A stretch of 64,000 nucleotides of DNA, from positions 1 to 64,000 of the forward strand of contig JAKEEU010000107.1 in assembly GCA_022616415.1 (NCBI GenBank), in the 5' to 3' direction. The first letter of the stretch is position 1. Each line of letters begins with the position of its first letter. This DNA is from Candidatus Zhuqueibacterota bacterium (GTDB lineage Bacteria; Zhuqueibacterota; Zhuqueibacteria; Zhuqueibacterales; Zhuqueibacteraceae). Below, one piece after another: positions 51,307 through 54,776 of this stretch. The notes beneath the pieces were generated by a model. The model made no database searches, had not been told where the DNA came from, and saw only the letters and a list, made by a program, of their open reading frames with translations. A program made the translations under genes and the position numbers.

Positions 51307-51660
51307 CTAATAGTCCTGATACACCGCGTGGCCGTTCTTCACCATCTCGTCGTTCACGTTCACCCAGGCCTCGCCCTGCTGCACGAAAATCTCCCCGAGA
51401 TAGCGGCCGTATTTTTCCTGTTTGTCTTTGATGGTTTGCAGGTGGACTTCTTTCCCGTCGATAAGCCCCCTGAGGAAATCCCGCGCCGCGAGGCCGGCCG
51501 GCTTTTGCTCGCCCGTCAGCTCCGGCGCGTTGATGCGAAACAAGCGAATTTTTTCATTGTGCACCCACGTGCGCAAGCCGAGGTCGATATCGACCGTGCA
51601 GGTATCGCCGTCGTAAACCGAGACGACTTTGGCTTTGTAATTGTAGAGATGTTCGTGCAT
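51307..51660 (-). CDS. Staphylococcal-nuclease-like (SNase/TNase) protein
   Basis: 117 residues covering one SNase OB-fold: VVSVYDGDTCTVDIDLG (Asp ligands at DGDT), IRLFRINAPEL (catalytic Arg and Asp-equivalent), then KEVHLQTIKDKQEKYGRYLG with the second conserved Arg (YGR), and WVNVNDEMVKNGHAVYQDY. All the usual catalytic positions appear present. There is no signal peptide, so it is probably cytoplasmic, unlike secreted TNases. GAAAGG precedes the ATG. Complete for the compact form of the family. Confidence 0.9.
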   Translation of the reverse strand: MHEHLYNYKAKVVSVYDGDTCTVDIDLGLRTWVHNEKIRLFRINAPELTGEQKPAGLAARDFLRGLIDGKEVHLQTIKDKQEKYGRYLGEIFVQQGEAWVNVNDEMVKNGHAVYQDY

Positions 51661-51760: not shown

Positions 51761-53149
51761 TTAATGAACGCGCGTGACGTATTCGGCGTACACGAATTTG
51801 GGCGAGTTTTCCTGGTTGTGGCAGCGCACGCAGGTCGCTTCGGTGGTTTTGGCGAAATTGTTGGTTTGATCGTCGGCGCGAACGTGATAGCCGGCGCGAC
51901 CATGGCACATCTCGCACCCGACCCCGGCCAGATATGGCTGATTGGTCTTGTAGTCATATCCAGTTTGCTCGCCGAAGCCGACGGTGTGGCAGCGCAGGCA
52001 TTCCGGATTTTGGGACTGGCCCTTCGTCATTAGCGTTTCGAGAGCGTGGGCGTGTTTGCTGTCGTGCCACTTTTTATAAATGTCTTCGTGGCAAAGCCGG
52101 CAAACCTCGCTGCCGACGAACATATTGTCGGTGGCTGCCAGCACGCTTTGCAGCTCGGGCTGTGGCGGCGCCGGCTCAACCGGCTTTACCGGCGGCCGAG
52201 GCGGCATTACCGAAGACTGGCTGCGCTTCAGAAAACTTTCTTTAATCGGCGCCGCTTTGGGCGAATCCGGTATGCGATCATCCAAAATATTTTGCTTGAA
52301 CGTCGCGGTGCGCGCGCCGGACTTCTTGGTTTTCTCCAAAGTGATCAAGCCCACTTCGCGGCCGCGATCGCCGGGTCCGACGACGATGGCGCCGGTATCC
52401 GAAGTCTGAACCTGGTTCAGCGGCTGCGCGGTCCAGTGCGAAAGCAGCCAGAGATCGACCTCCGGAAAGCTCTGCCGTAATTCCAACGCTTCTTTCGCCG
52501 GGCCGTGATAAATAACGACAAGCACGTCGGCTTTTTTCCGGCGCAAAGCCTCCAACTGCATTTGGAGAAAAGCTTTTGGCTCCTTCGGTTCGAGTGCTTT
52601 GCCCTGTTGCAAAAACGGCGAAACCGTCTCGACGATCCCAACGCGGCCCGCTTTCCGCTGAATCACCAGGCTGGGCGCCGCGCCGAGGTCGGCTGCCGGC
52701 TTGAGATTGCCGCTGAGCAACACGGCCTTGGCGCCGTTCGCCGCGACTTCCGTAAAAAAAGCCGGCGACAGATCGCGCTCGCCGACGCCGATGGCGTCGT
52801 AACCGAGCGCGTGCATGGTTTTGAAGATTTCGGCGGTTTTCCACACCGAGGGGCCGACGGTGGTTTCGCCGAAATCGCCGCCGTCCACCATGATCAAATC
52901 GGGATAAACCCGCCGCAAGCTATCGATGACTGAAATGCGCTTGGCCAGACCGCCACGCCTGCTGCCGCTTCAGCCGCACGGTTCGTAATAACCCACCGCG
53001 TCACTGGTGTATAAAATATGAATCTTGACCGGCTTGTCCGCCGCCCGCAAGGGCTTCTGAGCCGGCGATTTTGGCTGGGGCCAGCTCCAACCCAACAGCG
53101 CGAGAACCGCCGCGCCTCCGAGGAGGCAAAGCCTTATGTCGTTTCGCAT
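51761..53149 (-). CDS. UshA-like tetraheme cytochrome, putative selenoprotein (in-frame UGA)
   Basis: Start taken at 53149 (MRNDIRLCLLGG), giving a signal peptide or anchor. After VKIHILYTSDAVGYYEPCG the frame meets TGA (52970-52972) and continues in the same frame, SGSRRGGLAKRISVIDSL, without further stops to 51761: 462 residues counting the UGA. The first 240 residues follow the UshA/5'-nucleotidase metallophosphatase plan (YTSD, MVDGGDFG, GYDAIGVGERD), though the GNH[DE] motif is GERD, so phosphatase activity is doubtful. The last 110 residues hold four CxxCH heme sites (CRLCH, CLRCH, CEMCH, CVRCH). I expect Cys at the UGA position in relatives (PCGC...GGLA). I recall a 'UshA-like (seleno)protein' family name, not verified. 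Alternative: nonsense mutation. Confidence 0.7.
52937..52969 (-). promoter_or_regulatory. Candidate SECIS hairpin after the UGA
   Basis: Reading the minus strand after UGA, an 11-nt spacer leads to GCGUGGC (52952-52958), loop GGUCUG (52946-52951) and GCCAAGCGC (52937-52945): seven pairs with an AA bulge. GGUCU begins 18 nt after the UGA, the same distance and loop text I recall for the E. coli fdhF SECIS. These bases also encode the Gly-Leu of GGLA, so part of the likeness could be chance. Confidence 0.5.
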
Positions 53150-53483: not shown

Positions 53484-53575
53484 GCCGTAGGCTGCAACCC
53501 CCAAAAAATAATCGCTCACGGAAGAGAAACGCTCACGGAAATTTTCAGCATTATTTCCGTGAGCGTTCCCTACGG
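53484..53575. repeat. Nested inverted repeat ahead of HEAT lipoprotein
   Basis: A 15-bp perfect stem (53528-53542 with 53553-53567, arm containing CGCTCACGGAAAT) sits inside an outer CCGTAGG...CCTACGG pairing. CGCTCACGGAA is also directly repeated 16 nt earlier (53514). It could pass for a small mobile palindrome. The stretch 53213-53483 shows no gene. Confidence 0.65.
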
Positions 53576-53681
53576 GCGTAGCCATTTCCGCGAGCCAAAT
53601 ATTTTTGATTTTTCTGCGCCGCGTGACGTGGCGCCTGCGGCGCCATCTGCGACAAAGATTTCACTCATAAGAGAACCGGAT

Positions 53682-54776
53682 ATGCGATTCACCAAGAAGA
53701 CGATCAAGCTTGCTTTTTTGCTGGCGGCCTTGCCATTATTGTACGCCTGCGACCGAGATTTGCGGAAGGCGGAGGAACTCTATCAGCGCGCGCAAAACAT
53801 TCATCACGAAGAGGCGGCGACGATCACGGATCCTCTGGGCGAAGCCATTCAGCTTCTCGAAGGGTATCTCTCGCGCCATCACGACGATCCGGCGGGAACG
53901 CTTTTACTGTGGCGTTGTTATTTGCAGGCGGGCCACCCCCGGGCGCAGGCCATGGCGGAAAATATGCGCCGCATGCCCGAGCGCGTGCGCAGCATTTTTT
54001 ACCGCGAAGTCCGCCGCGAGCGGGAGGACGAGATGCGCGCGCGCATGGTTTATCTGTTTGGCGAGATCGATTCCACGCTGGACGTGAAGCCGCTCATCAA
54101 AATTCTCGAGCGGGATCAATCCATCAAGGTGCAACGGGCGGCGGCCGAGGTGCTCGCCCAGCGCGGCGCCAGCGCGGCGATACCGCTTTTGCTGCAAAAA
54201 CTTGGCGCCGAGCAGTCGGCGGCACGCTACTACGCTTGCGGCGCGCTGGCGTGCTTTCCCCAGCCTCAAATCGTCACCGCGTTGCTGGCGCGGTTGGAAG
54301 ATTCCAATGAAGCACAAGACGTGCGCCACCAGGCCGCCCATGCCCTGGCGCTAATGGGACAACATCAATTCGATGGGAGGGGCAAACTCTTGCAACAACT
54401 CGAGCGCCTTTTGGAGAATCAGGCGGAACCGGCCGACACCCGGCTATTGGCCGCTTATTCACTCGCGGCGCTCGGTCAAACTCGCGGCCACGATTTGGCC
54501 ATGGCCAACGCCAAGTCGGACGATGCTTATTTGCGCGGGCTGGCCATCATCACGCTCGGCTACATCGGCGATAACCAGGCGCTGCCCTATCTGGCCGATG
54601 CGCTTTTATACGGCAACAAAGCGCTGCGCCTGCAAGCGGCCGAGGCGCTCGGCCGGCTGGGAGATGCGAAGGCGCTCCCCACCCTTTACAAAGCGCTGGA
54701 CGATCCGAGCGACGCCGTGCGTGACGCCGCCAATCAATCCATCAACCGCATCAAGGCGCTGAGCAAGAGCGGGTGA
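53682..54776 (+). CDS. HEAT-repeat lipoprotein
   Basis: Start set at 53682 (MRFTKKTIKLAF) because it gives a lipoprotein signal peptide ending LLYAC, the lipobox Cys at residue 22; the longer frame would run into the upstream palindrome. 364 residues. A TPR-like helical hairpin (about 25-110) is followed by five or six HEAT/PBS-lyase-type repeats (about 125-360: VKPLIKILERDQSIKVQRAA; AIPLLLQKLGAEQSAARYYA; ALPYLADALLYGNKALRLQA; ALPTLYKALDDPSDAVRDAA). Probably anchored in the outer membrane and used as a scaffold. It converges on the secreted-protein operon, separated by a heptamer palindrome. Confidence 0.85.
   Translation: MRFTKKTIKLAFLLAALPLLYACDRDLRKAEELYQRAQNIHHEEAATITDPLGEAIQLLEGYLSRHHDDPAGTLLLWRCYLQAGHPRAQAMAENMRRMPERVRSIFYREVRREREDEMRARMVYLFGEIDSTLDVKPLIKILERDQSIKVQRAAAEVLAQRGASAAIPLLLQKLGAEQSAARYYACGALACFPQPQIVTALLARLEDSNEAQDVRHQAAHALALMGQHQFDGRGKLLQQLERLLENQAEPADTRLLAAYSLAALGQTRGHDLAMANAKSDDAYLRGLAIITLGYIGDNQALPYLADALLYGNKALRLQAAEALGRLGDAKALPTLYKALDDPSDAVRDAANQSINRIKALSKSG

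Follow-up and report, generated by a model that had tools for sequence, protein, structure and literature searches.

Does the single in-frame TGA in a gene for an UshA-like tetraheme protein mark a broken gene or a selenocysteine codon, and, if the latter, what might the selenocysteine (Sec) do on a phosphatase-like fold? On the minus strand of the window (the whole 64,000-nucleotide stretch of DNA that was analysed), the gene occupies 51761–53149 as a complete coding sequence of 463 codons with the stop, starting with ATG at 53149, as defined by translation with TGA read as U and by full-length homologues. Minus-strand translation bore out the initial annotation, in that the TGA of codon 60 (52970–52972), between EPCG and SGSRRGGLAKR, is the only one in an otherwise continuous frame, and in that the signal-like N-terminus and the four CxxCH sites share that frame across it. 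Read through, the frame gives a 462-residue protein.

Domains of the protein and the TGA column in its homologues

Residues 1–31 (53057–53149, minus strand) resemble a signal peptide both in sequence, with a charged start and then a hydrophobic stretch LCLLGGAAVLALLGW, and in the structural model, where they form a hydrophobic N-terminal helix. They are followed by an UshA/5'-nucleotidase-like domain of metallophosphatase fold with a degraded metal site (residues ~40–315; 52205–53032, minus strand), assigned from AlphaFold2, Foldseek, profile search and ligand counts, and by a tetraheme cytochrome c554-type domain (residues ~338–457; 51779–52138, minus strand) with the heme motifs CRLCH, CLRCH, CEMCH and CVRCH. 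The latter matches PF13435 (cytochrome c554) at 61.5 bits against a cut-off of 20.8, and residues 338–455 match positions 399–519, the C-terminal heme region, of the NCBIfam model NF041198. The c554 domain, together with the UshA-like fold found by Foldseek and profiles, upholds the UshA-like tetraheme identity proposed from the sequence at the outset. Pfam found nothing in the protein beyond cytochrome families, with no match at E 0.001 to phosphoesterase families, PF00149 or the C-terminal nucleotide-binding domain.

When 82 genomes of the host phylum were searched with stops read through, most UshA-domain homologues were found to contain one TGA; at the codon level the motif reads CG-TGA, or CG-TGC/TGT in the Cys forms. 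Two congeneric full-length homologues, 73% and 70% identical to the window protein, have one TGA at the same place. A pattern scan of named GTDB genomes gave at least ~62 more true TGA genes (a few being records already among the phylum genomes), found, among the matches listed, in Myxococcus, Corallococcus, Archangium, Anaeromyxobacter, Krumholzibacteriota, Neomarinimicrobiota, Gemmatimonadota, Calditrichota and deltaproteobacterial MAGs; the gene of L072 (G040:C281) is identical to that of L109. In the joint alignment and tree (n = 104) residue 60, the second half of C58-G59-U60, is U in 96 sequences and C in 8, always within a CGU or CGC motif and never anything else, so that TGA or Cys fills this column in 104 of 104 homologues, as had been predicted (PCGC becoming PCGU). 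Cys58 is invariant in the same 104 sequences, and C58 and residue 60 are likewise invariant in alignment A1. From the sequence evidence we are nearly certain that the TGA at 52972–52970 is a Sec codon served by SelB and a downstream hairpin, and that the product is an exported protein of 462 residues; the explanation as a whole, Sec decoding together with the redox working proposed below, appears highly probable to us.

A few homologues depart from the simple pattern. One Cys homologue, L036 (G026:C8), groups with the Sec forms on the tree and comes from a genome without SelA above cut-off; here Cys has apparently replaced Sec once the trait was lost. Four genomes of the sister family (G074, G073, G072 and G071; loci L065–L067 and L069) have a TGA copy plus a separate Cys paralogue with DCGC, and two TGA codons were counted inside the homologue at L049 (G053:C158:8152-9039).

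A degraded metal site beside an invariant Cys-Gly-Sec motif

AlphaFold2, run with 55 homologues, modelled the UshA-like domain (residues 40–315) mostly with confidence (pLDDT mostly 83–98) and the heme domain poorly; how the two domains sit relative to each other is also poorly modelled, with pLDDT below 50 at residues 332–350 and 389–435. Foldseek linked the fold to CD73 (9.3e-19) and the profile search to 5'-nucleotidases (9e-43), with UshA also among the relatives, and the alignment to 530-residue 5'-nucleotidases ends near residue 311, short of their nucleotide-binding domain. We mapped the metal site onto the CD73 ligands, which we take to be D36, H38, D85, N117, H220 and H243. The window protein keeps four of the six as D50, D92, H215 and H238 (equivalent to D36, D85, H220 and H243), while V52 stands in place of H38 and E124 in place of N117. 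Across the family none of the 104 sequences retains the Asn equivalent to N117, 42 of them have Gly or Asn in place of the bridging Asp, and none has more than five of the six ligands. The window protein thus shares the fold of its N-terminal domain with the UshA/CD73 5'-nucleotidases and SoxB, but differs from them in its degraded metal ligands, its Cys/Sec pair and its lack of a C-terminal substrate-binding domain; neither the full D, H, D, N, H, H ligand set nor the nucleotide-binding domain of an active UshA-type 5'-nucleotidase is found in it. As far as alignment and model can tell, the metallophosphatase fold has been kept, and the dinuclear metal site and the nucleotide-binding domain are absent.

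What is the role of the CGU motif then? In the alignment it forms a loop that comes after the first strand and directly follows the first metal-ligand position. Since metal ligands have been lost while the Cys58-Gly-Sec/Cys60 motif never varies, we infer a redox centre built on a dead phosphatase scaffold. Proteins employ selenocysteine almost exclusively in redox chemistry. In the mechanism that we propose, SelB would bind the hairpin that follows the UGA and bring Sec-tRNA(Sec) to this codon. The exported product would carry its Cys-Gly-Sec centre in the UshA-like domain, in the loop behind the first strand, and the tetraheme c554 domain would come next. With the old dinuclear phosphatase site lost, the neighbouring loop may have become a redox-active selenenylsulfide/selenol pair, which in the clade of the window protein would exchange electrons with the four hemes carried by the same polypeptide. 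The protein would then probably be a periplasmic or extracellular-facing reductase of a small substrate (or work in reverse), fed by a network of multiheme cytochromes. We regard the arguments for and against this redox working of the Cys/Sec pair with the hemes as evenly balanced; the lost metal site, the invariant Cys-Gly-Sec motif and the fused hemes make it a testable hypothesis.

Hemes were also considered as the common function of the family, and this was dropped: the heme domain is fused in 39 of the 104 rows, including the genus and family of the window protein, and absent from the chain in 65, some of which are fragments. Because many Sec homologues are without the heme domain, heme coupling cannot be the family-wide activity, and heme-less members must use another electron partner. 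In the heme-fused members, the arrangement of the chain points to the hemes as the obvious electron partner of the CGU centre.

Alternatively, the Sec might ligate one metal ion remaining at the former phosphatase site, the protein being a hydrolase or metal-thiolate enzyme and the hemes only docking a partner. The four ligands kept in the window protein (D50, D92, H215 and H238) make a single metal near the Sec possible, and the CGU loop directly after the first ligand position would suit it. However, the bridging Asp is replaced in the 42 sequences noted above and the Asn ligand is gone from all, whereas C58 and residue 60 never vary, and the almost exclusive use of Sec for redox chemistry also speaks against such a role, which we therefore consider unlikely. 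Much less probable still is that two products are made, the UGA ending a short exported peptide and a downstream restart giving an unexported UshA-heme protein. An ORF-caller does give a 385-residue ORF from a TTG at 52918, but it has no signal peptide, and yet the attachment of c-type heme requires export; moreover, the first strand, which precedes the UGA, belongs to one domain with the conserved GGLAKR that follows it, and the Cys homologues are uninterrupted. We keep to one exported chain with a Sec at residue 60. Ordinary annotation would treat the gene as broken or place its start at an incorrect TTG, so that signal peptide and active centre would be lost; genomes of Calditrichota, Myxococcota, Krumholzibacteriota and deltaproteobacteria are likely to contain the same error.

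Selenocysteine machinery and the SECIS hairpin

The Sec reading had been made to depend on selA, selB, selC and selD, and all of these are found in the genome of the window (10.27 Mb in 466 contigs, 8% contamination), with SelA (565 bits against a cut-off of 268), SelB (345 against 242), tRNA-Sec (68.9 bits, UCA anticodon) and SelD (367 bits) above their curated cut-offs. The selD gene (L074, G000:C194:82998-83921) adjoins that of SelB and has its own in-frame TGA, at CAGUASKMSP, which makes it a second selenoprotein gene of this genome and an internal positive control for Sec decoding in it. Because of the 8% contamination we place weight on a cleaner congeneric genome (G081; 100% complete, 2% contaminated), which has SelA and a TGA-bearing gene of 70% identity. 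Among the 82 genomes of the host phylum SelA exceeds its cut-off in 43 of the 47 with the TGA gene and in 20 of the 35 without it (Fisher p 4e-4, uncorrected for kinship or genome completeness).

The putative SECIS element, GCG-UGGC-[GGUCUG]-GCCA-AG-CGC, spans +12 to +33 after the UGA (52937–52958, minus strand; apical loop 52951–52946) and is assigned from the published model, folding, the spacing seen in fdhF and covariation in relatives. Folding of the 42 nt that follow the TGA confirmed the 7-pair hairpin with loop GGUCUG foreseen in the initial annotation: the minimum-energy structure is a 22-nt hairpin with seven pairs and a 2-nt bulge, at −11.7 kcal/mol (−9.7 in the exact hand-written pairing). 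Its GGUCU starts 18 nt after the UGA, and the equality with E. coli K-12 fdhF given in the initial annotation proved correct when read from NC_000913; the two elements share the GGUCU apical loop and this spacing but differ in stem sequence and bulge. The bacterial SECIS model (PMC13188914) has an apical loop of 3–9 nt that has G within its first two positions, an upper stem of 4–16 bp, an MFE of −7.5 kcal/mol or lower and 16–37 nt from UGA to apical loop. The window hairpin falls within all of these limits, with loop GGUCUG, four contiguous pairs plus three past the 2-nt bulge, and 18 nt. The 69-nt context is not more stable than its shuffles (z +2.1), so the folding energy alone is no evidence, and the support is comparative, coming from recurrence of the TGA and covariation of the hairpin. 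Rfam RF00031 (SECIS_1) had no match in the genome of the window; this silence is uninformative, because control genomes including E. coli gave none either.

Two hairpin positions within one family

The homologues fall into two types according to where the predicted hairpin lies, and in both it is built from codons shortly after the UGA. In the +19 type Gly67-Leu68 (GGU CUN) forms the loop; this type is found in the clade of the window protein and in many members from Myxococcota and deltaproteobacteria. In the +29 type, held by the rest of the host phylum and Krumholzibacteriota (loci L028–L064, L071, L083, L099, L125 and others, with loop GGM), the codons from Leu68 to Thr/Ser73 are palindromic, e.g. 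CUGGCUC-GGM-GAGCCAG with a 3-nt loop. Covariation is found at each position. In the +19 type the third base of codon 65 and the first base of codon 70 are T-A in 29 sequences and G-C in 11, with no T-C or G-A, and four further rows have an unpaired C at codon 65 (C-C or C-A); Gly67 is GGT in 42 of 44 sequences of this type, as against 305 of 1355 Gly codons in the Sec homologue genes of the phylum. In the +29 type the third bases of Ala69 and Arg71 are T-A in 28, C-G in 21, G-C in 1 and T-G in 1. Seven independent tree contrasts for the +29 pair go nearly always all one way and none the opposite way (sign test p ~0.016); the +19 pair offers two such contrasts, too few for a sign test.

Since the types were assigned by pairing, the lack of mismatches is partly built in. 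However, fewer than four pairs at both places are found in just 5 of 105 Sec sequences, and in a 36-row clade (SH-aLRT 94) all Sec members are of the +29 type, so little has been selected away. In the Cys homologues no more than two pairs form at either position, and Ala69 is not conserved. The downstream codons and their pairing are constrained in the Sec homologues and not in the Cys homologues. The three states (+19, +29 and Cys) require at least six changes on the tree. What is new here, as judged from the alignments, is a SECIS hairpin at two alternative positions in one family, with covariation at each; the literature searched yielded no earlier report of a hairpin moving in this way inside a single family, and the two positions offer a way to study the rules that govern Sec insertion.

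At the outset a Cys-to-stop mutation (TGC to TGA) was named as the main alternative. Such a nonsense mutation, or a sequencing error with the same effect, would mean a pseudogene or a misassembled gene and needs a single base change from the TGC/TGT of the Cys homologues, but its probability is negligible given that two further species of the genus, and ~96 homologues from several phyla with otherwise open frames, have this TGA as well, that the hairpin codons are constrained and that the Sec machinery of the genome is complete. The TGA was seen independently in the congeneric genomes of L016 and L017 and in dozens of others, and this recurrence excludes a misread TGC or a point mutation. Taking the Sec reading further, we can tentatively picture a widespread family of Sec enzymes in the periplasm that use a dead phosphatase scaffold and, in some lineages, connect through a tetraheme chain to the multiheme respiratory network, serving as terminal reductase or oxidase. 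In this family the SECIS would have shifted by 10 nt (+19/+29) on at least a few occasions without any change in the protein motif; we consider this wider picture somewhat less likely than not. If true, the shift would be a natural experiment on the tolerance of SelB for SECIS position.

Relation to known selenoproteins and gene neighbourhood

UshA-like CxU selenoproteins are an already recognised kind, counted (as COG0737 UshA-like) in the GOS ocean survey of 2008 (PMC2398784) and listed again later (PMC9312934; PMC13188914), and the window protein is a divergent new member. Its best NCBIfam match is NF041198 (UshA_like_PCGU), a 519-position model with which it shares the PCGU motif and the UshA-like domain followed by a C-terminal tetraheme domain. 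The score of 211.5 bits (2e-62) is below the curated cut-off of 275, so the protein is a divergent member not filed as an NF041198 equivalog, and it differs also in that its clade of 12, from two families of the host phylum, is a separate, strongly supported branch beside Cys homologues (SH-aLRT 96–100). With NF049981 (UshA_like_Sel_2) it shares an UshA-like domain with Sec, but the motif there is CxxU (PMC13188914) rather than CxU, and the window protein scores 44.5 bits against a cut-off of 140. In the literature searched, no activity is assigned to the UshA-like CxU family, and no study of Calditrichota selenoproteomes was found.

Among the matches listed, 54 named loci span 6 kb or more, and 10 of these have another multiheme ORF nearby; of the chance-match loci 1 of 16 has one, and this locus, L106, is probably itself a true homologue. 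The multiheme neighbours are concentrated in the heme-fused members and, as a sign of a heme-linked function, are suggestive only. At four loci of deltaproteobacterial MAGs (L111, L133, L087 and L080) 9-heme and 16-heme cytochromes adjoin heme-fused UshA-like Sec genes, the multiheme cytochrome of L080 having a NapC/NirT-type N-terminus (anchor); these neighbours fit an electron link to multiheme cytochromes, without proving it. In the window, a gene for a HEAT-repeat lipoprotein-like product (53559–54776, plus strand) is divergent from the selenoprotein gene and is kept at the same place in L016, L017, L018 and L020 (44–62% identity); a functional partnership of the two products is possible. 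Just downstream of the selenoprotein gene, on the same strand, lies an SNase-like (PF00565) ORF (51307–51660, minus strand), which was not found adjoining in the other relatives searched except L016, where it also stands beside the gene.
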